Below, piece by piece: positions 1 through 16,740 of a DNA stretch of 43,556 nucleotides (positions within the stretch are counted from its first letter, which is position 1; the number at the start of each line of letters is the position of its first letter). The notes under the pieces are model-generated. The model saw nothing but the letters and a program-made list of their open reading frames with translations, searched no databases and had not been told where the DNA came from. The stretch is from NCBI GenBank assembly GCA_903929765.1, contig CAIYVX010000110.1:1-43556 (forward strand), given 5' to 3'. A program made the position numbers and the translations under genes. This DNA comes from an uncultured Planctomycetia bacterium (GTDB lineage Bacteria > Planctomycetota > Phycisphaerae > FEN-1346 > JAACEH01).

Positions 1-3000
1 AGGTCGCCACCGCCGGGTTAGACGGTCCGGACACGTCACCCACCACGGTCACCGTCACCGTGTACTGGCCGGTCGTCGGACCGGCCACCGCCTTGTTCGC
101 GACGCTGTTCACCACACCGTCGCCCAGAACTATGCCGCCGATCAGGTGCAACGTCCCCGTCGTCCCGGCCGCGAAGGTAAAGGTACTCACGGGCGTGATC
201 GAGCCGAGGTTGTTGCCGGCACTGAAGTAGATGCAGGTCGAACTCGGAATCAGGCCCTGGTAGGTGGGGTTCGTCGAATTCGCCGACACGGCCACCGTCG
301 CAGTGTAGGTGGTGTTGCCCCAGGTGTCCGCCGTCACGCTGGTGGTCATGGTCAACTGGTGTCGGCTGCACGTCGTCGTCGGCGTGTTCTGATAGACCCA
401 GGTCGACGGCGTCGCCGCCGTCACCGACAGCGTTCCCGCCGACGGGATCAGATTTACGCCGTTGTTGGTCGCCGTCACCGGCGGCGCGGCGCCGTCGTCC
501 AGGCTGATTTCGCCGGGTTGCGTGTCGTCGCTCGCGCCCGTGGCGCACAGGTGCGCCTGCACCTGCGTGAAGTCAGTGTGGTTGCCGGTGTAGCGGAAGT
601 AATAGATGGCCACGACCTCGCCCGGCGTGATGGTCGTCAGGTCCACGCCGTCGTAAAGGTCATATAGATAGAAATCCACCCCAGCCGGAGCGGTCTCGTC
701 GCCGACCGAGCTTATGCCGCCCCAGGACGCAAAGGCGAATGTGCCCGAAATCAATCCCGCCAGTTGGGCTCCCGTTTTATTCCTGATATAGGACGAGGAG
801 CCGGAAAAAGCTCCAGCGTCCGTGCCGGTCAGGTACAACTCCGCCCCGAAATCGAGGGCATTGCCCGTGTTGCCATTGGAACTCGTGAAATTCACCTGCA
901 CGGTCATAATATGCGTCGTATCGTTCCAGGTCACGCTCGACGGATCAATCGTCACCAGAACCGCGCCGGCGAAGGCCGCCGTCAACGTCACGTTGCCCTG
1001 AACCGTCAGCGTAGCCTGCGACGTGCTGGTGGAGTCGATGGTTCCGCCCGTGACCGTCCAACTCACGAACTGTTGGCCCGGATTCGCCGACGCCGTGATC
1101 GTCACCGTGTCGCCGTAGTGATACGTCGCCTGGCTCGGACTCACCGCCAGCGTGCCCGTGCCCGCCGGGTTGATCTGCGCCGTCACCGTATACGTCAGCG
1201 CCGTGAAGTTCGCCGTCAGCGTGAAACTGCCGTAGACCGTGAGCGAAGTCGTCGCCGCCGCGGTGTTGTCCAGCGTACTCGGGCCGTTGATGCTCCAGCC
1301 GCTGAAGGCATAACCCGCCTGCGCCGACGCCGTCACCGTGATCACCTGCCCGTAAACATACGGTCCGCTGCTCGACTCGCTGATTGTTCCGCCCGTCTCC
1401 GTTTCCGTGCCGCTATAGCTGTTCTGCGAGAACACCGCCGCCAGCGTGCAATTGTTCGTGATCGTCAGCGTCGTCGTCGCAGAACCCCCGATCGCCACCG
1501 CCCCGCCCGTCGCCGTCCAACACACGAAGGTATACCCCGGATTCGCCGACGCCGTGATTGTCATCGTATTGCTATAGTTATAAGTCGCCTGGCTCGGACT
1601 CGCCGTCACCGTGCCACCCGCCGCCGGACTCGCCGACGCCGTCAGCGTGTACGGCACCAGCGAGAAGTTGGCCGTCAGCGTGAAATTGCCATCGACCGTC
1701 AACGAAGTCGACACGGCCGTCGAGTTGCTCAAGGTACTCGGACCCGTCACGCTCCAGCCACCGAAGAAGTAGCCCGCCTGCGCCGACGCCGTCACCGTAA
1801 TCACCTGCCCGTAGTAGTACGGCCCGCTGTTCGACAGACCGACCGTCCCGCCCGTCGCCGTCTCCGTGCCGCTATAGATGGCGCTATTGTTGAGCGGAAG
1901 CAGGGTACCGCCGTTCAGGTTGACCGTCCCGCTGTTCGTCAGCGTGCTGTAATAAACCTTCTGGTGGTTGAGGTCGAGGTAGGAGCCGTTGCCGATCACG
2001 AGATTCTTAACGTAGAGGATCTCGGTCACGCCCGTGCCCGTCTCGTTGACGACCTGGTTCACCAGTTGGACCTGCCCCGGCCGGATCCCGCCTATTTGCA
2101 GCGTGCCCAGGACGAAGTTGTTGACGGCACTGCCGCTGCCGGTGCCCAGGTCTTTGCTGGCCACCTCGAAAGTATCGACCACGCCCGTGCCGCCCTCGAA
2201 GATCAGGGTCAGGTTCGACATCGAAGCCGCACAGGAGGGCGTCTGGCTCATGTTCGCAAAGGCCGAGCCGGCCATGTGGATGGTGGTGCCCGGCGCGAGG
2301 TTAAGCGACCCGTTCTGGCCCAGGTACAGGCTCCCCGTCAGCGTGATAACCGGCGCGGAACTCGTGGTTTTAAACAACCCTGTGCCATGCGTGGCCCCGG
2401 AGTCTCGGCCCACGATCAGGTTCACCGCCGAGAGCGTGCCGCCGCCCATGGCGAAAGACCCGCTGCCGCTTTGACCCATTTGACCCAGCACGACATCTCC
2501 TGAAACTGTGACCGTGCCGCTGTTCTGGACGAAAGCTCCGGTGCCGGTGTTGGAGACCACGAGCGAAGCTGCGGTGAGCTGACTGGCGGCGCCGCTCAAA
2601 TTGTAGGTGCCGTTGCCGAAGGCCGTGTCGCCCAACGCCAACGCGCCGGAAACGGTGTTCGAGCCGGCGGTGTGCGTCAAGGTGCCCGACCCGGTGTGGC
2701 CGATTGTTTCGGTGCCGGCGCTTAAAACGCCTCCGCCGAGGTTGTAGGCCGCGGGCACGCCCGCGTAGTAGGTGGCGTTGTCAGTGGACCACCCGCCCAC
2801 CCGCAGTAAGCCCGTGACGATGGAGGTGCCCCCGGTCTGGGTGAACGTGCTGGGGCCTTCTCCGCCGACGGAAAGGAGCGAGCCGACGTTCAGAATGCCG
2901 GCGTTGAGTTGGTAGAGACTAAGGATGTTTGCACCTACTGCGCCGTAGCCGCCGAGGTTCAGGTTGCCGTTGGTTCCGGTCATGGTGTGCGTGCCGCCGT

Positions 3001-4852
3001 TCTGCGTGAAGGTGGCATTTCCCCATCCGCCAATGTCCTCGTAGCCGGTCACGTTCAAGGTGGCGCCCGCGCTCATGGTGTAGTAGGCCTGGCCGCCGGA
3101 GGAGCTGGTGGTGCCAACCCCCAGAGTAGTGGCGTTGTGAATCCCGCCGGTGTGATTGAAGGATCCCACCTTACTGACTTTCGTGCCATACGTTCCGTTG
3201 GCATTGAGCGTGCCGCCGCTCAGTTGGTAAGTGCTTTGATAATTCGCACTTCCAATCACGAGGGAGCCCGGCGTGACGGTGCAGGTTCCGCTGCTTTGGA
3301 CGAAGAGACCCGGGCTGGAGAGACCCAGATTTATCGACCCGGCCGTCACGATGCCGTTGCCGCTCAGGTAATAGGCGCCGGCCCCGGCCGCGGCCGTCCC
3401 GTCCGCGTAACCGAGCAGGAGTTGGCCCGGCATATTCGTCCCGCCGGACTGGGTAAACGTGCCGGCCCCGCCGGACGTACCGATGTCCTCGTTGCCGGCG
3501 ATCAGCGTGCCGCCGGTCGCCAGGCTGGACGTGGTATCGTGTACGTTCAAGGTGCCGCCAGTCTCATTGCTCCCGGTGGTGGAGTTGAACATGCTGTCGC
3601 CGCTGCGCAGGTTGATCCAGCCGCCGCTGTTGACGTTGACGCCGTTGGTCAGGTTCAGGCCGCGGCTTGAACCGTCGGCCAGCACCCCGGCGTCAATCGT
3701 GCCGGAGCAGGTGAGGTGGTTGGTGATGTTGCCCCAGCCCTGAAAGCCCTGGCCGGGGCCAAGCACCAGCGGCCCGCCGGGGTTCTTCACGAGCACGAGA
3801 TTGCCGGGGTTCCACCCGCCACCGAAAACCGCCGGGCCGTTGAAGCTCGGGTTGACGAGGACCAGGGAGTGGGGGCCGCTGGAGAAACTGGCCTGACTGC
3901 CATTGATAATCGTGGCCTGCGAGAGGTCCACCATCGCATCGCCGACCGTCACGGACTCGGCCGTGCCGCCAAAATCCAGGGTGCCCGCTAAGGTCAACGC
4001 GCGGCTGACCGCCAGGCTGCCGCCGGTGAAGTGGTAGTTGCCGCTCATGAACAGGGAATTCACGGTTACCGTCCCGGCGGTCTGGTCGAAGTAGCTGGAC
4101 GGCGTCACGAAGAGCACCGAGGTCGCCAATTGGCCGGGACCATACAGATTATAGCGGCCGGGTGCGTCGTACCATTCCTGTCCCACTGTCACATAGGCGT
4201 CGGCCAGGCCCGCCCCCCACGCCGAACCGACCACGCTGCCGCCGGTTTGAAGAAAAACGTTGCTCCCATTGCCGCCGATCGTTAAGGCGTGGGTCAAGAT
4301 CAGGCCATTGCTCAAGCTATAGGTCGCCGAGCCGCCAAACACGATCATATCGATGGCACCTGCCGAAACCGTGCCACTCGTCTGCTGGAAAATGCCGTTG
4401 CCGGCGCCACCGAAGAAACCGCCCTGCATGTACAACGAGCCTACGAAGAGGCTGCCGCCGCTCATGGTGTATGCGGCCGTACTGGGATTACCCTGCGCAT
4501 TGACGCTTGGGTTAAAGATAATTTCCGTTAAATTCACGGTGCCGCTCGACTGGATGACGTTTCCACCCAGGCAGGAACCGCTGAAGTACACTCCGAGGTA
4601 CAGCACATTGCCGCTGACCGTAGTCCCCAATCCAGATATGGTCGCCGTGCCGCCGTTTTGGATGTAGGCTTCACTCATGCTGCCATTGAAGTGGCCGGGA
4701 AGGCCATTGGACCAGTTGCTGGCTGTGGTCCAGGGCGAGGGCGCGCCGGGCGCTCCCTGCCAATAGGTCTCGACGTATTGGCCTCGCGCTGTACCAACTG
4801 TCAACCCCAGCGAAAACGCCAGAACCAGCACGCCGACGCAAAATGACCTCAT
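1..4852 (-). CDS. Giant exported beta-strand-repeat protein with divergent InlB-type repeats (3' end outside window)
   Basis: An uninterrupted minus-strand frame of about 1,617 codons runs from an ATG at 4852 off the left edge. A GAGAGGGG ribosome site precedes the start. The first 25 or so residues form a signal peptide (MRSFCVGVLVLAFSLGLTVG, then a TARG/Q cleavage region). Next comes the WxxASNWSNGLPG-like opening common in secreted PVC proteins. Residues about 40-980 are Gly/Ser/Thr/Asn-rich with recurring 'QSGGT' and 'YxLSGG' turns, as in autotransporter-associated beta-strand or solenoid regions. Residues about 990-1290 hold four alternating copies of a 70-residue module (GGTV, YxYGxxxTxTASAxxGYxFxxW, TLTANF), which fits divergent InlB B-repeats. 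The remainder resembles cell-surface beta-sandwich domains. Function is probably adhesive or structural at the cell surface. It lies 61 bases behind the FecR-like gene and is likely co-transcribed with it and the sigma factor. The family reading is from composition and motifs; the anchor at the C-terminus is not visible. Confidence 0.8.
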   Translation of the reverse strand, partial: MRSFCVGVLVLAFSLGLTVGTARGQYVETYWQGAPGAPSPWTTASNWSNGLPGHFNGSMSEAYIQNGGTATISGLGTTVSGNVLYLGVYFSGSCLGGNVIQSSGTVNLTEIIFNPSVNAQGNPSTAAYTMSGGSLFVGSLYMQGGFFGGAGNGIFQQTSGTVSAGAIDMIVFGGSATYSLSNGLILTHALTIGGNGSNVFLQTGGSVVGSAWGAGLADAYVTVGQEWYDAPGRYNLYGPGQLATSVLFVTPSSYFDQTAGTVTVNSLFMSGNYHFTGGSLAVSRALTLAGTLDFGGTAESVTVGDAMVDLSQATIINGSQASFSSGPHSLVLVNPSFNGPAVFGGGWNPGNLVLVKNPGGPLVLGPGQGFQGWGNITNHLTCSGTIDAGVLADGSSRGLNLTNGVNVNSGGWINLRSGDSMFNSTTGSNETGGTLNVHDTTSSLATGGTLIAGNEDIGTSGGAGTFTQSGGTNMPGQLLLGYADGTAAAGAGAYYLSGNGIVTAGSINLGLSSPGLFVQSSGTCTVTPGSLVIGSANYQSTYQLSGGTLNANGTYGTKVSKVGSFNHTGGIHNATTLGVGTTSSSGGQAYYTMSAGATLNVTGYEDIGGWGNATFTQNGGTHTMTGTNGNLNLGGYGAVGANILSLYQLNAGILNVGSLLSVGGEGPSTFTQTGGTSIVTGLLRVGGWSTDNATYYAGVPAAYNLGGGVLSAGTETIGHTGSGTLTHTAGSNTVSGALALGDTAFGNGTYNLSGAASQLTAASLVVSNTGTGAFVQNSGTVTVSGDVVLGQMGQSGSGSFAMGGGTLSAVNLIVGRDSGATHGTGLFKTTSSAPVITLTGSLYLGQNGSLNLAPGTTIHMAGSAFANMSQTPSCAASMSNLTLIFEGGTGVVDTFEVASKDLGTGSGSAVNNFVLGTLQIGGIRPGQVQLVNQVVNETGTGVTEILYVKNLVIGNGSYLDLNHQKVYYSTLTNSGTVNLNGGTLLPLNNSAIYSGTETATGGTVGLSNSGPYYYGQVITVTASAQAGYFFGGWSVTGPSTLSNSTAVSTSLTVDGNFTLTANFSLVPYTLTASASPAAGGTVTASPSQATYNYSNTMTITASANPGYTFVCWTATGGAVAIGGSATTTLTITNNCTLAAVFSQNSYSGTETETGGTISESSSGPYVYGQVITVTASAQAGYAFSGWSINGPSTLDNTAAATTSLTVYGSFTLTANFTALTYTVTAQINPAGTGTLAVSPSQATYHYGDTVTITASANPGQQFVSWTVTGGTIDSTSTSQATLTVQGNVTLTAAFAGAVLVTIDPSSVTWNDTTHIMTVQVNFTSSNGNTGNALDFGAELYLTGTDAGAFSGSSSYIRNKTGAQLAGLISGTFAFASWGGISSVGDETAPAGVDFYLYDLYDGVDLTTITPGEVVAIYYFRYTGNHTDFTQVQAHLCATGASDDTQPGEISLDDGAAPPVTATNNGVNLIPSAGTLSVTAATPSTWVYQNTPTTTCSRHQLTMTTSVTADTWGNTTYTATVAVSANSTNPTYQGLIPSSTCIYFSAGNNLGSITPVSTFTFAAGTTGTLHLIGGIVLGDGVVNSVANKAVAGPTTGQYTVTVTVVGDVSGPSNPAVAT

Positions 4853-6896: not shown

Positions 6897-9704
6897 TTAC
6901 CGCTTCGACCGCCGTCTCTTCGCCACCGGCAGCATCGGCGTCAGCAGTTTTTCGTACAGGGCAAACAAATACTCCACCCGCTGCCGCTCACTGGTGAAGG
7001 GCTGGGAGCGATAGCAGCGATCCACCGCTCGGTCAAGCAGGGCATGGGCGCGGACCAACTTGGCCGGTCCTGTCACAGGATCATAAAGGTCGGCCAAAGA
7101 GGCCTGGCCTTGCTTCTTTCTGGCAGGCAGGAAGCCGAAGCGTCCATCGCCTAGTTCAACACGCAGATCAAGGACGCGCTGTGCCGCTTCTTCTACACGT
7201 GCCCGTTTGGTTTCACTCGCATCCTCGGGCCAGGGAAAGTTGTTGTAAACCAGTTTCGCCGAATAGCGAAGGTCCGATTTTAAACGTCCGCCAATTTGCC
7301 GCACCCAAGCCATGTGCATGGCCGAGGACAACACGCCGAAATGATAAACAGTGGCATTCGGAATAATGAGGCAAAGATTGCTGGCGATAACGTTCGCGGG
7401 CATGAAACCAATTGGAATATAACGCCTTTTCTCCGAGGAAACCGATGGGATAAGCAAATAAGGCGTTTCCGGGTGGCTTATGAATGCGAACTCAGTCGGA
7501 TATGCCGCCAGGGCGACGGTCGCTTCTCGTTTGCTTGAAAGGCGGAAATCTTTGACGGCCTCGACTCGTCGTTTCACTTCGGGCATGGCCCGTAGCTCGG
7601 CGGAGGGTAAGTCTCGGAGCCAGAGACACCACCGTTGTTCGCCGTTAATAAATTCCTGTGAGCCGATGAACAGCCTGAGAAAATCCTTCGCCCGTGGCTC
7701 ATGGTCCAACAACTCGGCCCGTTCCTTAGTATCCAGTAGCAAGTTGCCGCCATCAATTGGCTGATTTCCAAACCGCATCGCAGGAGACTTGCAGAGTGGT
7801 TTAGTTCGATTGGTAATGGCTTTGTCCGGACCTTCGACCAGATAAGGACTTATGTTAATGACTCTGGAGATTGAAGGATTGTTTGGGTCAGCTTCGTAAT
7901 CGTAAATCTTCTTATTAGTTGAGTTGAAAGCGGCGAAGCCAATGATGACCACGTGGACGTGGGCTTTGCCGCGCGCCTCGCTTTCCCAGGCGAAAGTGCG
8001 GTGAGCAAAATTGATCTTGAGCTCGAAGCGCCGAAAGAGGTCGTTCCAAAGTATTCCAGCCTGCTCTCCCTGGCTAATGGAATTGGTAGAGACAAAACCA
8101 ACAGAAATTTTCGTTCCTTGGATATATTCCGCAGCCTTGAAGTACCAGCCGGTGACGTAATCAAGAAGCCCGGCATTCTTGACTTTGTTGGCGACAAAAT
8201 CCATATCCGCGCGCTGTTCAGCGGTCTGGAATTTTCCACCAACGAAGGGCGGATTGCCGAGAATGTAAGAACATTTCTTAGGTGCGAGAATCTCCTTCCA
8301 ATCCAGCCGCAAAGCGTTCCCGCAAACAATCGTCGGACTCTTTTTCAGCGGCAGGCGGACATAGTATTTACCGAAAGTCTCGGACAACCGCAGGTTCATC
8401 TGGTGGTCCATCAGCCACATGGCGACTTCGGCGATTCTGGCGGGCCACTCGCTGATTTCGATGCCAAAGAAGGCGTCCACGTCGAGCAAAGACATGGGAA
8501 GTTCATCCCCGAGAGCCCGGAGAACTTCGAGTTCAAGGAGGCGAAGTTCACGGTAAGTTATGATCAGAAAATTGCCGCAACCGCAAGCCGGGTCGAAATA
8601 CTTAAGGCTAGCGAGTTTCTGGTGAAAGAGCCTTAACTTTTTTTTGTCTTTTCCGATGCTCTTGAATTCCTCTCGCAGTGCGTCGAGGAAAAGAGATCGG
8701 ACATCTTTGAGAATGTCGCGCTCACTGGTGTAATGTCCGCCGCTCTGGCGGCGCTGTCGCGGTTCCATGATGCCCTGGAATAAGGAACCGAAAACGGCTG
8801 GCGAGATGCTCGACCAGTCGAAACGGGTGCAGGCCAGGAGGGCGTTGCGCATATTGCTGTTGAAATCGGCAAATCCGAGGTGTTCCGCGAATAGGTCTCC
8901 GTTGACGTACGGGAATGTGGCGAGTGTTTCTTCGAGGTTCTTCTGACGTTGTTCAGGTGCGGTGTTGAGTACCTCGAACAGCCGGGCCAGGTGCAAACCA
9001 AGGTCGGAGCCGTCCGGCTTGGTCTGGTTCTCAATATAGAGTTGAAAAGCCATTCGCTCGAAGATGCCGGTGTCCTCGGCGAACAGGCAGAAAAGAATTC
9101 TGACCAGAAACCGTTCGAGCTCGTGGCCCTTGTAACCGCCGATGGACAGGGTGTCATGCAAATCGCCCAGGATGGCCACGGCCTTGAGGTTGATCGGATC
9201 CTGATCCTCGAATCGGTGCGTCTTATATCCAGGAATGAAGGCGAAGTCGTGAATGTGGTGATGCAAGTCCGCCAGCGGAAACTCAATGGTCTTGCCCTTG
9301 CCTAACAACGGCAATGATTGCTGTTCTTCTGGCTCCAGGTCGAGCAAAGCGATGCGGGCAAAATCCGAAACGATGATGTAGCGGGGAACTTCGTCATGGC
9401 GTCCACTGGATGCCAAATTATGGATGTAACGGATCGCCTGTGACTCAGCCCCTCCCAAATCTTTGCCACGACTCTTGTGTTCGACAAGAAGGGTGCCGGG
9501 CCAGAAGAGGTCGATGAAGCTGTAATCGCCGGTCAGGTTTTTGACCGATGCTTCAAAGCTGGCCACGAGGCTGCGGCGTAAGCCGAAAACTTCAAAGAAG
9601 GCATTCCAGAAACTCTGCTTATCCGCGCTCTCACTTTTGGCTCCGGCCCACTCATGGGCGAAGCCGATGGCATTGTGTCGAATTTCATTCCAAGATAAGG
9701 GCAT
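6897..9704 (-). CDS. MmeI-like type IIL restriction-modification enzyme (endonuclease, N6-adenine methyltransferase and specificity in one chain)
   Basis: A protein of 935 residues, close to the 919 of MmeI. An AAGGTAG precedes the ATG. The N-terminal nuclease motif is D65-x9-E75-H-K77 (IDLFWPGTLLVEHKSRG), the PD-(D/E)xK spacing known for MmeI. A helical linker follows and ends in SGGHYTSERD at about 321-330. The methyltransferase has motif I FDPACGCGNF at 370-379 and motif IV NPPF at 484-487. The C-terminal part (about 620-935) should hold the target-recognition and C-terminal helical domains; PWPEDASETKRARVE is seen near 860. In this family one protein methylates one strand for protection and cuts about 20 bases away. 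The gene has visibly lower GC than its neighbours, which suggests horizontal gain. It sits alone with no separate subunits. A methyltransferase-only role is possible if cleavage is lost, but the nuclease residues are intact. Confidence 0.9.
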   Translation of the reverse strand: MPLSWNEIRHNAIGFAHEWAGAKSESADKQSFWNAFFEVFGLRRSLVASFEASVKNLTGDYSFIDLFWPGTLLVEHKSRGKDLGGAESQAIRYIHNLASSGRHDEVPRYIIVSDFARIALLDLEPEEQQSLPLLGKGKTIEFPLADLHHHIHDFAFIPGYKTHRFEDQDPINLKAVAILGDLHDTLSIGGYKGHELERFLVRILFCLFAEDTGIFERMAFQLYIENQTKPDGSDLGLHLARLFEVLNTAPEQRQKNLEETLATFPYVNGDLFAEHLGFADFNSNMRNALLACTRFDWSSISPAVFGSLFQGIMEPRQRRQSGGHYTSERDILKDVRSLFLDALREEFKSIGKDKKKLRLFHQKLASLKYFDPACGCGNFLIITYRELRLLELEVLRALGDELPMSLLDVDAFFGIEISEWPARIAEVAMWLMDHQMNLRLSETFGKYYVRLPLKKSPTIVCGNALRLDWKEILAPKKCSYILGNPPFVGGKFQTAEQRADMDFVANKVKNAGLLDYVTGWYFKAAEYIQGTKISVGFVSTNSISQGEQAGILWNDLFRRFELKINFAHRTFAWESEARGKAHVHVVIIGFAAFNSTNKKIYDYEADPNNPSISRVINISPYLVEGPDKAITNRTKPLCKSPAMRFGNQPIDGGNLLLDTKERAELLDHEPRAKDFLRLFIGSQEFINGEQRWCLWLRDLPSAELRAMPEVKRRVEAVKDFRLSSKREATVALAAYPTEFAFISHPETPYLLIPSVSSEKRRYIPIGFMPANVIASNLCLIIPNATVYHFGVLSSAMHMAWVRQIGGRLKSDLRYSAKLVYNNFPWPEDASETKRARVEEAAQRVLDLRVELGDGRFGFLPARKKQGQASLADLYDPVTGPAKLVRAHALLDRAVDRCYRSQPFTSERQRVEYLFALYEKLLTPMLPVAKRRRSKR

Positions 9705-9754: not shown

Positions 9755-10744
9755 TTACACCCGCATCACAAACAGCACCGGCGCCAACCACTCGATTTCC
9801 CCCGCCGCCAGCCGTTCCGTCTCGTACCGCTCGTTGATCGGCACCAGGTGCACCGTCTCGCCATCGCGCCGCACCAGTTTCAGCGTTACCCCCACCCGGC
9901 CGCGAATCTGCACCAGCGCCGCCTGGCCCGCCCCCACCTCGCGCCCCGCCGCCGCAATCACGATGTCCCCGTGCCGGAAGCGCGGCTTCATGCTCTCCCC
10001 GTCCACCCGCAACGCAAACGCCGTCGGAAACCGCCGCCGAATCGCCGGCGCGTCCACAAACTCGATCACCCCCGACCCCAGCGGCGCGTCAAACTGCACC
10101 AGCGCCACCCCGCCCGACATCTGCGGAATCGCCCCCTCCAGCGCCGCCTCATCCGTCTCCAGCTCGGCCACATTCTTCCGCCGCACGTCCAGCCCCAGCG
10201 CCGTCCGCGCGATGTCCGCCACCGTCACCGCCGGCTCCTCGCCCAGCAAATCCTCATACCGCCCCACCAGTCCCGCCGCCGTCCGCCCCAGGATCGGAAT
10301 CATCGTCTCGGCTTTCTGCACCCGCTCCGTCTGCCACGCCGGGGCCGGGCGGGGGAACCGGTCCCGCACCGCCGCCAATGTCTCGGCCAGCGCCTGAATC
10401 GTCGCCGGCGAAGCCCCGCCCGGCGCCGCCTCCCGAAACCGCGCCAGCACCGTTTCCAATTCCGGCGGCAAGGCCCGCGCCCATTCCTCGTGTACCTGGG
10501 CCGCCCCCACGTCGCGCGGCTCCTGGCCCGTCACCAGCCACTCCAGCCGCACCGCCGCCACCTGCGCCGCCCGCGCCAACACGTCCGGCGGAGCCATCCG
10601 ATTCTTTTCATAATATATGTATGTCGATGGACTCAAACCCAACGCCCGGGCCATCGCCGCCCGCCCGCGCGCCCCGAACGCCTTCACCCGCGCCGCCGCC
10701 AGCCGCCCGCAAATCCCGCCCGTTTTGTCCGCCGCTTCGCCCAT
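9755..10744 (-). CDS. XRE-family repressor with S24 (LexA/CI-like) self-cleavage domain
   Basis: A protein of 329 residues; ATG 10744 follows GAGGA. Residues about 12-70 form an XRE helix-turn-helix (ARVKAFGARGRAAMARALGLSPSTYIYYEKNR). A linker of about 70 residues follows. A LexA-like cleavage site is visible as ILGRTAAG with A157-G158. The S24 peptidase dyad is S251 (VDGESMKPRFRHGD) and K289 (GVTLKLVRRDG). Proteins of this type repress a promoter until RecA or another signal triggers self-cleavage, as in phage CI and SOS regulators. No phage genes surround it. Its likely targets are the palindromes and the rightward promoter at 10833-10943 and hence the small ORF at 11122. It may also regulate the flanking restriction-modification genes; that is inference. 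Confidence 0.9.
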   Translation of the reverse strand: MGEAADKTGGICGRLAAARVKAFGARGRAAMARALGLSPSTYIYYEKNRMAPPDVLARAAQVAAVRLEWLVTGQEPRDVGAAQVHEEWARALPPELETVLARFREAAPGGASPATIQALAETLAAVRDRFPRPAPAWQTERVQKAETMIPILGRTAAGLVGRYEDLLGEEPAVTVADIARTALGLDVRRKNVAELETDEAALEGAIPQMSGGVALVQFDAPLGSGVIEFVDAPAIRRRFPTAFALRVDGESMKPRFRHGDIVIAAAGREVGAGQAALVQIRGRVGVTLKLVRRDGETVHLVPINERYETERLAAGEIEWLAPVLFVMRV

Positions 10745-11398: not shown

Positions 11399-11432
11399 GT
11401 AGTTGCCGTTTGCTACGGCGAGGGAGTCTGGG

Positions 11433-12230
11433 ATGGCCGAACCAACTGAACGAATTGATGCGGTTGCCGATTATGGAACGCGACCGGCGGGGTCGGCGGT
11501 TGAGACCCTTTTCCCGGTGGCCGTTAAACGCCGAAGAAAAAGAGTTGCTATCCAAAAAGATCAAGGCCGTGGGTCATTGATGGTGAAACAGTCTTCCGCC
11601 AAAACATACGCACCATTGCCCTCCGTCTGGTTTGGAGACGATTCGGAACTTATCGACAAGATGCTTCGGTTTTATCCACGCAAGAAACCAAAGGATATTC
11701 TTGACGCGACCGTAAACTGTGGCCGGTTTTGGCGGGGGCTCGACTGGAAGATTGTCGGCATGGACATCAACCCGGCCCATAATCCAACGGTCGTTGGGGA
11801 CAACACGGACATGCCTTTTGCGGACCGCAGTTTTGATGTCGTGGTCTATGACCCGCCCCACATTCCTAATCAGGGTAAAGATGGCTGTAAGGATTTCAGC
11901 ACCCGGTTCGGGCTGACTGTCAAATCTCCAAAGGAGCAGGGTTACAGCCTGTCATATATGTACCCGCCGTTCCTCGCAGAAGCCTTCCGTGTGCTTCGGC
12001 CAGAGGGCATTCTGTTGTGCAAACTTGCCGATTACGTTCACGGTCACCGATACCAATGGGCGCACCTGGACTTTGTCCGGGCCGCAGAGATCGCCGGTTT
12101 CTGTCCTTGCGATAGCATCGTAAAAGTTAGACAAGGCCCGATCATTGACCCCAGGTGGAAGGTGGCGCATCACGCTCGCCGGCAACACTGTTTCTGGTTG
12201 ATCTTCCGTAAGTCGAAGAAGTGTGAATAA
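11433..12230 (+). CDS. Putative DNA methyltransferase (DPPH motif), partner of the convergent endonuclease candidate
   Basis: A protein of 265 residues. ATG 11433 has AGGGAG six bases upstream; a TTG at 11403 is a weaker choice. Residues 89-99 (ILDATVNCGRFW) occupy the motif I position seen in phage-like methylases of the 'ILDxTxGxGxFW' type. GMDINP at 109-114 binds the ribose end of S-adenosylmethionine. D140-P-P-H143 is the catalytic motif IV in place of DPPY. The fold is a class I SAM methyltransferase, probably acting on an amino group in DNA. A basic stretch lies at 31-38 (VKRRRKRV). The gene has lower GC than its surroundings and ends one base from the stop of the gene on the other strand, which supports a restriction-modification pair. 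An RNA methyltransferase cannot be ruled out. Confidence 0.7.
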   Translation: MAEPTERIDAVADYGTRPAGSAVETLFPVAVKRRRKRVAIQKDQGRGSLMVKQSSAKTYAPLPSVWFGDDSELIDKMLRFYPRKKPKDILDATVNCGRFWRGLDWKIVGMDINPAHNPTVVGDNTDMPFADRSFDVVVYDPPHIPNQGKDGCKDFSTRFGLTVKSPKEQGYSLSYMYPPFLAEAFRVLRPEGILLCKLADYVHGHRYQWAHLDFVRAAEIAGFCPCDSIVKVRQGPIIDPRWKVAHHARRQHCFWLIFRKSKKCE

Positions 12231-12231
12231 A

Positions 12232-12855
12232 CTACACGATGGGCTGCCGCCACTGACGCAACATTTCGCAGCGATTAACAAGCAGATCGTGGATTTGGCA
12301 CTTCCCGTCTGCCCCATCGAAGTGAACGCGGAAAAGCCTTTTTTTGCCGTCCATTACTTCCCCGGCTAAACTGCGGCGACCTTTTCGCGTACCCACTTTC
12401 TTGTATCTGGCCTGTGTCATTTGGCTGAGGAGCGAGACTGGAATGTCGAGCAATTGATACTGAAAAAAATCTGTTTCCCAAATGGCCCGCAACATCAGAA
12501 TCTTGTCGTAACGGGCAACGTGGGCGAGGGTGTGAGCGACCAACGCGGGAGCGTTCCAATCCCCCTTTTCGGTGGTGCAGAGCTTCGTAATGCTGATTTT
12601 GTCAACGCGCGTGACCTTCCCGGTTTCACTCTTGACCGAAAGACGGGTTGTACCCACCAACAAATCATGCTGGGGGCTGTTCGGGGTGGTCGGGACAACT
12701 TGGTCACGAGGCCATTTTGATAAAATGAAGCCCTGTTCGACGAGTGCTTCCAGAAATAATCCTTGGGGAGGGAGGCGCGGATAGATCGTGTGGTGCTTAC
12801 GCACAAGAGATTCGACAGTCGAAAGAAATTCATCGTCAAATAGGGTGACCAGCAT
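12232..12855 (-). CDS. Putative type II restriction endonuclease
   Basis: A protein of 207 residues from ATG 12855; a TTG at 12879 would add eight residues. The centre has D64-x8-S73-V-K75-S-E-T-G (HDLLVGTTRLSVKSETGK). This resembles the D...(E/S)xK core of PD-(D/E)xK restriction enzymes, several of which have a KSETG-like turn. Residues 105-135 are a long helical stretch (LVAHTLAHVARYDKILML). No closer family is recognised. It lies tail to tail with the DNA methyltransferase, one base apart, and has the same lower GC. This arrangement is common in type II systems and is the main support for the call. Without that context I would call it hypothetical. Confidence 0.55.
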   Translation of the reverse strand: MLVTLFDDEFLSTVESLVRKHHTIYPRLPPQGLFLEALVEQGFILSKWPRDQVVPTTPNSPQHDLLVGTTRLSVKSETGKVTRVDKISITKLCTTEKGDWNAPALVAHTLAHVARYDKILMLRAIWETDFFQYQLLDIPVSLLSQMTQARYKKVGTRKGRRSLAGEVMDGKKRLFRVHFDGADGKCQIHDLLVNRCEMLRQWRQPIV

Positions 12856-12908
12856 ACACCTGTTATCGGTCGTACACAAAGGGAAAATAAGCCAAAAATC
12901 TCAAACAA

Positions 12909-14087
12909 TCACCACGCCCCGCGCGCCTGCAGCGTCGCGTGCAGCACCAGCGTCTGGCCGTCGCGCTGCACCTTGAACTCCACCCGGTCGCCCACGCGCC
13001 GCGAGCCGATTTCGTACAGCAGTTGGAACGGCGATTCGATCTCGTGATGCTCGAATTCGTTGATGATGTCGCCCGTCCTCAGGCCGCTCGCCTTGGCCGC
13101 CGTCCCCGCCAGAACTTCCGTTATCGTCGCCCCTTTCTCCAGCCGCGTCATATTGAAGCGGATGCCCAGGAACGGCGCTTCGATATGTTTCCCCGCCGCC
13201 AACTCCGGCAGTTCCGCCAGAATGTCCTCCAAAGGCACCGCGAACCCGATCCCCGAACTACTGAACTGGTCCGCCGCTCCCGTGCGCCCGCCCCCGCCCG
13301 CGACGTCCGCCGCCCCGATCAGCCCCACCACCCGCCCGCGCAGGTCCACCAGCGGCCCCCCGTAGTTCACCGGCGAGATGTCCGCGTCCGTCTGCACCGC
13401 CAGGCCCGCCTGCCGCCCCACCCCGCTCAGAATCCCTTTCCCCACCGTCGCTTTCGCCACCGGCAGCGTCCGCCCCAGCGCCAGCACCCACTGGCCCACC
13501 CGCAGCCCCGCCTTTGGCGCCGCCGTCGCCGGTTTCAGGCCGACCGCCTCGATCTTCAGCAGCACCACGTCCCGCCGCCGGTCGTCGCCCAGACGTTTCG
13601 CCGCCAGCACCCGCCCGTCCGCCAACTCCACCTTCAGCCCCCGCTCCTGGCCCCCGATGTTCGTCAGCGTCGTCAAAACATATCCGTCACTCGAAATGAC
13701 CAACCCGGTCCGCACATGCGTTTTCGCCTTCGCCTCCGACTCCTCTTTTTTCGTCGAACCCTGTTCTTCCTCGGCCGCCTCTTCCGCCGGACTCGCGCTG
13801 CTCGCCGCTTCGTCCGAATACGTTTCCCGCAACCGCCGCGCCCGTTCCGCTCGGGCCGCCGCGGCCACTTCCTCCGCCGTCTGCTCCGTCCCGATCACCC
13901 GCACCACCGCCGGCGAAACCAGTTGCACCGCCCGGTCAATCACCGGCTGCAGTCCCGCCAGATCGCTGTCGTCCGCCCGCGCCGACGCACTCGCCGCCAA
14001 AACCGCCAGTCCCGCCAGCGCCAGCGCCGCACAAATCGCCCCCGCGTCACTTCTTCGCCGCAGGTATTGTTCCAAGGGTAACTTCAA
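12909..14087 (-). CDS. HtrA-like PDZ protein with lost catalytic residues (third of three)
   Basis: A protein of 392 residues starting with TTG 14087. AAGGAG seven bases upstream decides this rare start, which lies 41 bases inside the previous gene. Residues about 14-38 are a signal peptide (GAICAALALAGLAVLAASASARA). A charged Ala/Glu/Lys insert occupies 70-124. The trypsin-like fold is recognisable (GLVISSDGYVLTTLTNIGG, RRDVVLLKI, NYGGPLVDLRGRVVGLIG). The aspartate (D173) is kept, but the histidine position is T142 and the serine position is Y242. A C-terminal PDZ domain follows (about 300-390; FLGIRF, GLRTGDIINEF). It is probably a periplasmic non-proteolytic partner or chaperone of the active HtrA two genes upstream. 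Confidence 0.85.
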   Translation of the reverse strand: MKLPLEQYLRRRSDAGAICAALALAGLAVLAASASARADDSDLAGLQPVIDRAVQLVSPAVVRVIGTEQTAEEVAAAARAERARRLRETYSDEAASSASPAEEAAEEEQGSTKKEESEAKAKTHVRTGLVISSDGYVLTTLTNIGGQERGLKVELADGRVLAAKRLGDDRRRDVVLLKIEAVGLKPATAAPKAGLRVGQWVLALGRTLPVAKATVGKGILSGVGRQAGLAVQTDADISPVNYGGPLVDLRGRVVGLIGAADVAGGGGRTGAADQFSSSGIGFAVPLEDILAELPELAAGKHIEAPFLGIRFNMTRLEKGATITEVLAGTAAKASGLRTGDIINEFEHHEIESPFQLLYEIGSRRVGDRVEFKVQRDGQTLVLHATLQARGAW

Positions 14088-15201
14088 GCTCTCTCTCCTT
14101 CTCTTCGCCCGAACGGCGCACCGTCACGCGAATCTTCTCTCCCGGCTTGGTCTGCCGCAAGGCCCGCCTCATCCCCGCCGAATTGAAGACGACCGTCTTC
14201 CCGATCCGCACGATCACGTCGCCCGTCTTCAGTCCGGCCTTTTCCGCCGGGCTGCCCGAGACCACCGCTGTAATCCGGCACAAAGCCGCCTCCGACGAAC
14301 TCTTTATTCCCAGATATCCATATTTCCCCGCCTCATTTCCACCCTCCTCCTTGAACGGCGCATCGGGCGTTGCCCGCGCCCGCCGGATCAGGTCCGCCGC
14401 CAGTTCCACCGGCAACGCCAGGTTCAGCGCCGTGTTCGTCTCCGCGTTGCGCTGCGGTTTCGACAGCAGGCCCACCACCCGGCCCGCGGCGTCCACGAGT
14501 GCCCCGCCCTCGCTCGACTCGTTCATCATCGCGTCCGTCACCAGCCAGTCGCCGCTGTAGGTCAGCGTCGTCACCAGCGGCCCCCGCGCCACCAGCAACC
14601 CCACCCCCAGGCTCGGCTGCGATTCGTCTTTCGCATCCGCGCCCACCGGATAGGCCACCGTCGCCACCCACGACCCGGCCGTCAGATTCTTGCTCGTGCC
14701 CAACTTCGCTGCCGCCCACAAAGGCCGCACTGCCGCCGCCGGCGCCACGGCCGAACTGGCGGCGCGGGCCGACGTCGCCGCGCTGCTCGAAGTTCCGCCG
14801 GTTCCCGCCGGCAGCAGTTGCAGCACCGCCACCTTCGTCGCCGCATCGCGCAGCAACATCTTAGCCTTGACCTCGCGCCCGTCCGCAAAATAGACCGACA
14901 ATTCATTCTTGTCGGCCACGTCTGCATGTGTCAATATCAACCCGTCCGCGCTCACGATCAGACCCGTCGAATATTCCTCCGTCCCCACCACCCGCACCAC
15001 CGCCGGCGCCGTCGCCTCGTAGGCCGCCGCAAACGGCGACGGACTCGGCTGCGCCGCCGAAGATGGCAACGCCACCATCAACAAGACGCACAACGCCACA
15101 AAACAGAATCCGGGTGCCACACTTTGGCCCGGCGGGTTGTTTCGCCGGGCAAAGTGTGTGTTGGAATATCTGCAAATACAAAATCTTGACCACCTGTCCA
15201 T
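14047..15201 (-). CDS. HtrA-like PDZ protein with lost catalytic residues (second of three), REP-like hairpin in its leader
   Basis: A protein of 384 residues. ATG 15201 lies five bases past the upstream stop, with AAGGA in the end of that gene. The N-terminus is unusual: residues about 15-28 are encoded by the palindrome at 15118-15158, ahead of the hydrophobic signal core (FCFVALCVLLMVALPSSAA). Relative to the active paralogue the catalytic histidine is D94, the aspartate K123 and the serine E231 (SSEGGALVDAAGRVVGLL), so all three are gone. A Ser/Ala-rich insert lies at about 134-160. A PDZ domain sits at about 290-380 (YLGIKSS, GLKTGDVIVRIG). A GTG just after the palindrome is an alternative start but lacks a ribosome site. 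It is probably secreted and non-proteolytic. Confidence 0.85.
   Translation of the reverse strand: MDRWSRFCICRYSNTHFARRNNPPGQSVAPGFCFVALCVLLMVALPSSAAQPSPSPFAAAYEATAPAVVRVVGTEEYSTGLIVSADGLILTHADVADKNELSVYFADGREVKAKMLLRDAATKVAVLQLLPAGTGGTSSSAATSARAASSAVAPAAAVRPLWAAAKLGTSKNLTAGSWVATVAYPVGADAKDESQPSLGVGLLVARGPLVTTLTYSGDWLVTDAMMNESSEGGALVDAAGRVVGLLSKPQRNAETNTALNLALPVELAADLIRRARATPDAPFKEEGGNEAGKYGYLGIKSSSEAALCRITAVVSGSPAEKAGLKTGDVIVRIGKTVVFNSAGMRRALRQTKPGEKIRVTVRRSGEEKERELEVTLGTIPAAKK
15118..15158. repeat. Palindromic repeat inside the coding start of the second HtrA-like gene
   Basis: The arms CACACTTT and GCCCGGCG pair with CGCCGGGC and AAAGTGTG around GGTTGTTT. This is the same loop and outer arms as the intergenic copy at 6576-6618. 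Read on the minus strand it is in frame and encodes part of the extended N-terminus. Confidence 0.75.
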
Positions 15202-15206
15202 TAAAT

Positions 15207-16397
15207 CTATTCCTTCTTCTCTTCAGGCTTCGCGCCGGGCTCCGGTTCCTTATCTTTCTCCGGCGCCGCCTCCGTCCGGAACGGATTCCGCAACTCGCCC
15301 ACCCCCAGCGCCGCCGTCGCCTGGATGCCGCCCAGTTGCACGTTCTGCTCGAACACTTTCCCGCCCCGGCGAATCTTCAACACCAGCCGCGTCCCCGCCG
15401 GATGCAGTTGAATCAGGTTCTCCAGCTCGCCCGGTCCGCGCACCGCCTCCCCCGCCACGCGCAGCACCACGTCGCCCGCCTTCAGCCCGAACAGATCCGC
15501 CGGCGAATCCCGCGTGATCGACTCGATCCGCGCCCCGCCCTCTTCCTCCGGCTCGCTCGTCGCCCCCAGATACCCCCGATCCACCTCGTGCCCCGCCTTC
15601 ATCTCCTCCAGAAACATTTTGATCCCGTCGATCGGCACCGCAAAACCGATGCCCCCGCTCTTTTTCTGCACCTTCAACCCTTCCACCTGCCGCGGCGAAA
15701 TCCGCCCGTTAATCCCCACCAGCTCCCCCGCCATGTTGAACAGCGCCCCGCCCGAATTCCCCGGATTCAGCGCCGCATCAATCTGAATCGCATCGGCATA
15801 AATCAGGTCTTTCTGGAACAGCCCGTCGCCCGTCAGGTAGCGGTGCAGCCCGCTCACCACCCCGAAGCTCACCGTCGGCCGAAAGTCCGTCGCTATCAGG
15901 AACGGATTTCCCATGGCGATGACCCATTCACCCACCCGCAATCGCCCGTTCGATCCTTGCCGCGCAAAGGGCAGGGGCGCCGCACTTTCGATCTTGATCA
16001 GGGCCACGTCGCCCGTCCGGTCCACCCCGCACAGCTTCGCCTTCAGAATCTTCCCGCCCGGCAGGCCCACCCGGAATTCCCGCGTCGGACCCGTCTCCCG
16101 AAACGCGCCCCGCCGCGCCGGTTCCGCCGCCACATGAAAATTCGTCAACGCATACCCGTCCGCGCTGATGATCACCCCGCTCCCCGCCGTGTCCGCCAGA
16201 TCCCCGTTGGCCTTCACCCGAAACACGCTGATTACCGTCGGCGACAGCCGCGCGACCAATTCCACCCGCGCCTTTTCCACCTGCTCCGCCGCCGCCAACT
16301 GCGCCTCCGCGCTTTCCGCCCCCATCGCCGTTCGCCCCGCGCCCGCCAATACCAGCGCCGCCGTCACGCCGAGAACCATTCGCCAAACTCGCTTCAT
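15207..16397 (-). CDS. HtrA/DegP-like serine protease with PDZ domain, intact triad
   Basis: A protein of 396 residues. ATG 16397 follows GGAGGA with six bases spacing. Residues 1-27 are a signal peptide (VWRMVLGVTAALVLAGAGRTAMG). The trypsin-like domain has the full catalytic triad H88 (LTNFHV), D130 (RTGDVALIKI) and S215 (NPGNSGGALF). One PDZ domain follows at about 285-365 (YLGATSE, FGLKAGDVVLRVAG). The tail is Pro/Glu/Lys-rich (EAAPEKDKEPEPGAKPEEKKE). It should degrade or refold damaged proteins in the periplasm. It is first in a tight operon with two degenerate paralogues, which may form mixed oligomers with it. It differs from DegP in having one PDZ domain rather than two, like DegS. 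Confidence 0.92.
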   Translation of the reverse strand: MKRVWRMVLGVTAALVLAGAGRTAMGAESAEAQLAAAEQVEKARVELVARLSPTVISVFRVKANGDLADTAGSGVIISADGYALTNFHVAAEPARRGAFRETGPTREFRVGLPGGKILKAKLCGVDRTGDVALIKIESAAPLPFARQGSNGRLRVGEWVIAMGNPFLIATDFRPTVSFGVVSGLHRYLTGDGLFQKDLIYADAIQIDAALNPGNSGGALFNMAGELVGINGRISPRQVEGLKVQKKSGGIGFAVPIDGIKMFLEEMKAGHEVDRGYLGATSEPEEEGGARIESITRDSPADLFGLKAGDVVLRVAGEAVRGPGELENLIQLHPAGTRLVLKIRRGGKVFEQNVQLGGIQATAALGVGELRNPFRTEAAPEKDKEPEPGAKPEEKKE

Positions 16398-16740
16398 CAC
16401 CACTCCTCCGCAATCTTCATAAACCTCTTAACACGTCATTCTATACGACGTGCCGCCGATTGTCAGCATCCGTCCCCAAATATCCTCTTGGCCTCCCGCC
16501 CTCCACCGGCGATAATACGAAAATGGTTGTTGTTTCAATCCAGACCCTGGCCGATGGGTGGCATGGTCCGGCGAAGACGGGCCATGAATAGAGACCGCTC
16601 GACTGGAAGCCGTTGTTTCTTCTTCACCCCTCTCCCTTGAGGGGAGAGGGTAGGGTGAGGGTGCACCGGTTGCAATCATATCGCCGGTGACTCTTGTGGT
16701 TTTGCCGTTTCTGTTTTCGTTGCCGTTGGAGGTTTTCTCT
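16398..16740. other. Spacer with divergent HtrA/tatC leaders and two palindromes
   Basis: A palindrome-like GGTGGCATGGTCCGGCGAAG stretch at about 16557-16588 recurs almost unchanged at 26849-26880. The hairpin at 16624-16662 (CACCCCTCTCCCTTGAGG, then GGAGAGGG and TAGGGTGAGGGTG) belongs to the family also seen at 19643, 19773, 28630, 28692, 36308 and 38525. A TATAGAAT at about 16438-16445 on the minus strand could be part of an HtrA operon promoter. No gene is seen. Confidence 0.55.

Follow-up and report, generated by a model that had tools for sequence, protein, structure and literature searches.

Three adjacent genes of Planctomycetota, here called A, B and C, encode one HtrA protease with an intact catalytic triad followed by two HtrA paralogues that have lost theirs. 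We describe this array from contig G000:C110, which belongs to a genome of 3.83 Mb and is itself 43.6 kb long (43,556 nucleotides; the whole contig is referred to as the window), and trace it through the phylum, our survey having covered Planctomycetota genomes only. The gene triad is almost certainly a conserved functional module, and the persistence of intact dead copies throughout the sampled families suggests a built-in mixed protease complex. We found no published account of such triads in the open-licence literature, and the system appears to be undescribed so far. HtrA proteases are commonly seen as homo-oligomers in which every subunit is able to cut. A system with one cutting and two non-cutting members would, if true, be a natural setting in which to test how an HtrA active site is governed by the subunits next to it; among bacteria it would also parallel the heteromeric proteases that contain dead subunits.

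Genes and catalytic residues of the array

The array lies on the minus strand at window positions 12909-16403. Gene A (15207..16403) has a GTG start, with an alternative ATG at 16397, and a promoter-like site upstream on the same strand (16438..16466; CTGACA-17-TAGAAT, 10/12, a consensus match only). Gene B (14047..15201) is translationally close to it, the intergenic gap (15202..15206) being 5 bases, and gene C (12909..14087) begins at a TTG inside the end of B, with a 41-base overlap (14047..14087) and an AAGGAG 7 bases ahead of the start. All three translations have signal-peptide-like N-termini followed by Trypsin_2 and one PDZ domain, and A, B and C alike match Trypsin_2 and PDZ_2 above the Pfam cut-offs. 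This is the layout of HtrA/Deg proteins (MEROPS S1C), found by Pfam for all three and also by Foldseek for models of B and C. AF2 monomer models from six-row alignments are of moderate confidence, with a mean pLDDT of 74 for C and 72 for B, and both group with the HtrA structures DegQ, DegS, MucD and AlgW (E about 1e-24 to 1e-19); the C model matches DegQ/DegS/MucD and the B model HtrA/MucD structures, which are trimeric HtrAs. Scores against TIGR02037 (Do family) are 224, 117 and 172 bits for A, B and C, all below the curated cut-off of 416, and we would class the three on these matches as divergent HtrAs with a single PDZ domain. The original prediction had described this tight packing, and a fold core, signal peptide and PDZ domain kept in the dead genes; both descriptions hold.

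Alignment places the catalytic triad of A at H88/D130/S215 (numbered from the ATG at 16397), with D94, K123 and E231 at those positions in B and T142, D173 and Y242 in C, as had been read from the letters. D173 is the catalytic Asp, retained, so C would be dead through loss of His (H to T) and Ser (S to Y), the latter within the motif SPVN-Y-GGPL. Misalignment masking intact residues was considered and rejected. The segments GNSGG of A, SSEGG of B and VNYGG of C are matched gap-free, and the same alignment, used as a control, keeps Ser in 25/25 ordinary HtrAs of the same class and His in 24/24 of those whose sequence covers the His position; no intact residues are hidden elsewhere. The pattern extends to the orthologues: H-D-S is present in 58/58 A proteins and the nucleophile Ser is absent from 57/57 B proteins, which have A (21), Q (13), P (8), Y (6), G (4), E (2), F (2) or D (1) instead. 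Every one of 63 C proteins has Tyr for Ser, 31 of them (the window's included) having been picked without the Tyr motif, and in the joint alignment most C proteins have Phe, Trp or Tyr at the His position. A residue pattern found in dozens of genomes is neither chance nor sequencing error, and by these substitutions B and C are predicted pseudoproteases of the HtrA/Deg family.

A divergent tatC precedes the array in the window. Restriction-modification genes flank the operon at 6897-9704 and 12232-12879 (minus strand) and at 11403-12230 (plus strand), the set comprising an MmeI-type fused enzyme, a SmaI-like endonuclease and an adjoining methyltransferase. A gene for an HTH and Peptidase_S24 (CI/LexA-like) repressor lies at 9755-10744 (minus strand), and a similar HTH/Peptidase_S24 gene stands directly downstream of the array in a related genome (L073, 1270-2736, minus strand). 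The window's genome has at least 11 Trypsin_2 matches. It also holds a second HtrA pair (L088, G000:C5:1-6000, at 157-3759), in which an active HtrA of 626 codons precedes a dead, very divergent paralogue whose nucleophile position is Gln.

Recurrence and coupling of the three genes

Among the genomes compared, the closest relative of the window's genome is the Phycisphaerae MAG G001, and a contig scan for gene B returned a single locus, L072 (G001:C9). Searching 60 relatives with C and B gave paired adjacent matches in many genomes from other families, and the loci read there have the same A-B-C array. The C motif SP[AV]N-Y-GGPL, searched for as a DNA pattern, was found in 37/392 Planctomycetota genomes, against 1 for a reversed control. 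Because that pattern presupposes Tyr, the search was redone with a C profile in 246 genomes, which recovered an orthologue in 41 genomes of 18 families at a threshold of at least 331 bits, the next best HtrAs scoring 270 bits or less. The 20 further C orthologues from the profile search, none chosen by motif, all have Tyr, with a mild residual bias because Tyr-bearing members were the source of the profile. Where all three genes are present they lie on one strand in the order A-B-C in 55/55 loci, and the conserved active-dead-dead operon of the original prediction, which had proposed looking for the same gene order in relatives, thus recurs across the sampled Planctomycetota in many families. 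Linkage is not absolute, as a C gene occurs with neither A nor B nearby at five loci (L108, L118, L119, L129 and L131).

Coupling of the genes goes beyond their adjacency. When both profiles were searched, B orthologues (at least 275 bits; next 199) and C orthologues fell in the identical 19/119 genomes, none being discordant. In two genomes, G143 (L129) and G160 (L131), B is far from C, so their co-occurrence reflects more than linkage. A and B are also fused in frame at seven loci (L079, L082, L122, L123, L124, L140 and L143), with 772-1290 codons of open frame. On the A tree, which includes 5 of the 7 fusions, the fused state takes four changes (bootstrap 5-95% range 4-4), and as reconstructed from these sequences the A-B fusion arose four times independently. 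Strict co-occurrence and fusion are both expected of partners, and the natural fusions provide ready-made constructs of fixed stoichiometry.

A related array is found in further Planctomycetota. Loci just below the score gap of the C search encode three HtrAs in a different order, and a profile of their C-like member (A5) recovered many more of them. About 28 such type II loci, not picked for dead residues, have the order B'(dead)-C'(dead)-A'(H-D-S). C' and C share TSx-[F/Y/W]-N in place of TNxH-V, with the Asp kept in C', and the Ser of C' is retained in some loci and elsewhere gives way to A, V, T, L, M or R; L191 has lost the Ser but retains the His position. B' and C' are fused at three loci (L173, L185 and L191), and A' forms the sister clade of A in the tree. 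One genome, G122, holds both architectures, type I at L144 and type II at L172.

A predicted mixed HtrA machine and its alternatives

We lean, by a modest degree, towards reading A, B and C as parts of one mixed HtrA machine, located in the envelope, that has a single type of catalytic subunit. The idea in the original prediction, that dead subunits within a mixed trimer could tune activity or present substrates, is compatible with all of the findings above. Physical contact between A and B is the part of this prediction that we consider most probable, and a complex of all three together is likely, if somewhat less so; both are drawn from the A-B fusions, the strict co-occurrence and the trimer core known for HtrA proteins. 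The three proteins would be secreted together and would assemble through the protease domains that form HtrA trimers, the simplest product being a 1:1:1 heterotrimer that is perhaps dimerised. A-B fusions imply equal amounts of A and B, and B'-C' fusions equal amounts of B' and C', the simplest sum of which is 1:1:1. Such a trimer, in preference to stacked homotrimers, is a tentative prediction to which we give slightly less than even confidence. A would then have the sole active site, and B and C would contribute PDZ domains as well as neighbour-subunit loops that switch this site on or off in response to ligand or substrate, their own sites being blocked, in C by the aromatic Tyr and Phe/Trp. 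Within the trimers of known HtrAs, the L3 loop of a protomer orders or sets the LD loop of the protomer beside it, and the PDZ domains sense ligands (PMC4877387), so dead neighbours could gate the live site while closing two others. It is conceivable, though again a little short of an even call, that Planctomycetota have an obligately heteromeric HtrA with a fixed composition of one catalytic to two pseudoprotease subunits; both architectures would share this composition, and the type I form would belong to a MoxR/Bat/NPCBM envelope machine.

Among described systems, MamE/MamO of magnetotactic Alphaproteobacteria comes closest: there too a gene cluster encodes an HtrA-family protease along with a pseudoprotease relative, and the pseudo-HtrA is needed non-catalytically for the protease. 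Contact between MamE and MamO was undetected at the time of that work, a point against the mixed complex (PMC4794232). MamE/MamO involves one dead partner, with MamO bearing a transporter domain and a metal site, and serves a magnetosome trait, whereas the planctomycete triad has two dead, PDZ-bearing, soluble paralogues, is found in many families of one phylum and includes A-B fusions. NCBIfam MamE/MamO models score 17.7-117 bits against a cut-off of 800, and the TauE-like transporter domain of MamO is absent, Pfam finding Trypsin_2 and PDZ only. Arabidopsis Deg5/Deg8 resembles the proposed machine in that two HtrA paralogues form one complex at 1:1, but Deg5 has no PDZ domain, the catalytic His is rotated and not replaced, and there is no operon (PMC4877387, PMC3640471). 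HtrAs of the E. coli DegP/DegQ/DegS type share the fold, the Trypsin_2-PDZ layout and the PDB profile matches, but they are homo-oligomers in which all subunits are catalytic.

The alternative that survives best, which we nonetheless regard as unlikely, is that B and C form separate homotrimeric chaperones or substrate adaptors that pass clients to an A homotrimer, with the operon providing co-expression only. Catalytically dead HtrAs can retain chaperone function, as is known for DegP, and some C genes are unlinked, as this arrangement would allow. AtDeg5/AtDeg8, the only HtrA hetero-oligomer cited in a review of the family, is moreover described there as built from homotrimers (PMC4877387). 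Recurrent A-B fusion and the shared presence of B and C in 19/19 genomes, however, indicate a coupling tighter than that of a shared pathway, and the two distinct dead types always accompany each other.

It is less probable still that B and C took on a new biochemical function, for instance the binding of a metal or ligand, that has nothing to do with regulating A. The HtrA scaffold was repurposed for metal binding in MamO (PMC4794232), and C has a highly conserved pocket motif, SPxNYGGPL. Yet conservation is concentrated at the former active site and the fold core, and B is fused with A. A MamO-like metal-binding role was rejected: no His is invariant in the B or C alignments, where the di-histidine metal motif of MamO was sought, and their invariant columns offer neither His nor Cys for a metal site. 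Very improbable is an active hydrolase in B or C with an unconventional nucleophile or base, for example the Tyr of C; conservation does extend to the oxyanion-region Gly-Gly and to the pocket, but the nucleophile position of B holds any of A, P, Q, G, E, F, Y or D, and C has an aromatic residue for the general-base His and variable residues for the Asp.

Constraint on the dead copies, another check proposed at the outset, bears out the module. In a 156-row tree A, B and C each fall on one side of a branch (SH-aLRT 92, 96 and 95), and matching subgroups recur inside the three clades (L074/L103/L078/L093; L075/L076/L080 with L079; L101/L102/L134; L122/L123/L141), which argues for joint vertical inheritance. 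In close pairs, dN/dS by NG86 for A, B and C is 0.034, 0.047 and 0.062 (L127/L128), 0.053, 0.070 and 0.061 (L138/L139), 0.165, 0.085 and 0.135 (L109/L125) and 0.179, 0.187 and 0.170 (L080/L081). The window and L073, giving 0.26, 0.43 and 0.51, are too divergent for reliable values (B 46% and C 52% identical). The close pairs point to purifying selection on B and C like that on A. That B and C are decaying duplicates, local pseudogenes with no function, can be put aside with near certainty, and neutral decay was rejected: residues of the catalytic triad are indeed lost, but full-length open frames persist in many families, dN/dS is far below 1 and the same as for gene A, the replacement Tyr of C is invariant, and the three genes are co-inherited phylum-wide.

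Operon context of the type I array

The gene before A encodes a related protein of ~400 aa in 41/58 loci, and NPCBM (PF08305) was found in 3/4 scanned members of that family. A conserved operon present in several families reads MoxR (AAA_3)-DUF58-BatA/two_anch+vWA-cl5-cl3-cl1-cl2-NPCBM-A-B-C (seen, for example, at L149, L154-L157 and L160), and type I arrays usually stand at its end. Neither Pfam nor NCBIfam gives a match above cut-off for the families cl3, cl1 and cl2 (about 800, 600 and 370 aa), and the vWA-like cl5 is likewise without a family match at that level. The content of the operon points to a role for the triad in envelope or surface-protein handling, and in type I the A-B-C complex would work with the MoxR/DUF58/BatA/NPCBM envelope system of the same operon. 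Bat operons share with these upstream genes MoxR AAA_3, DUF58 and the BatA N-terminal region plus vWA, in that order; to our knowledge they include neither an HtrA triad nor an NPCBM gene. The triad also serves as a handle on the function of a widely conserved, uncharacterised planctomycete operon.

In the window's family the triad is separated from this operon: the NPCBM gene and cl3 are on other contigs (G000:C86 and G001:C29), and in G001 DUF58, BatA and cl5 lie beside NPCBM/cl3. At L155 (G076, 14500-16513), MoxR and DUF58 are located between the NPCBM gene and A and not at the operon head.
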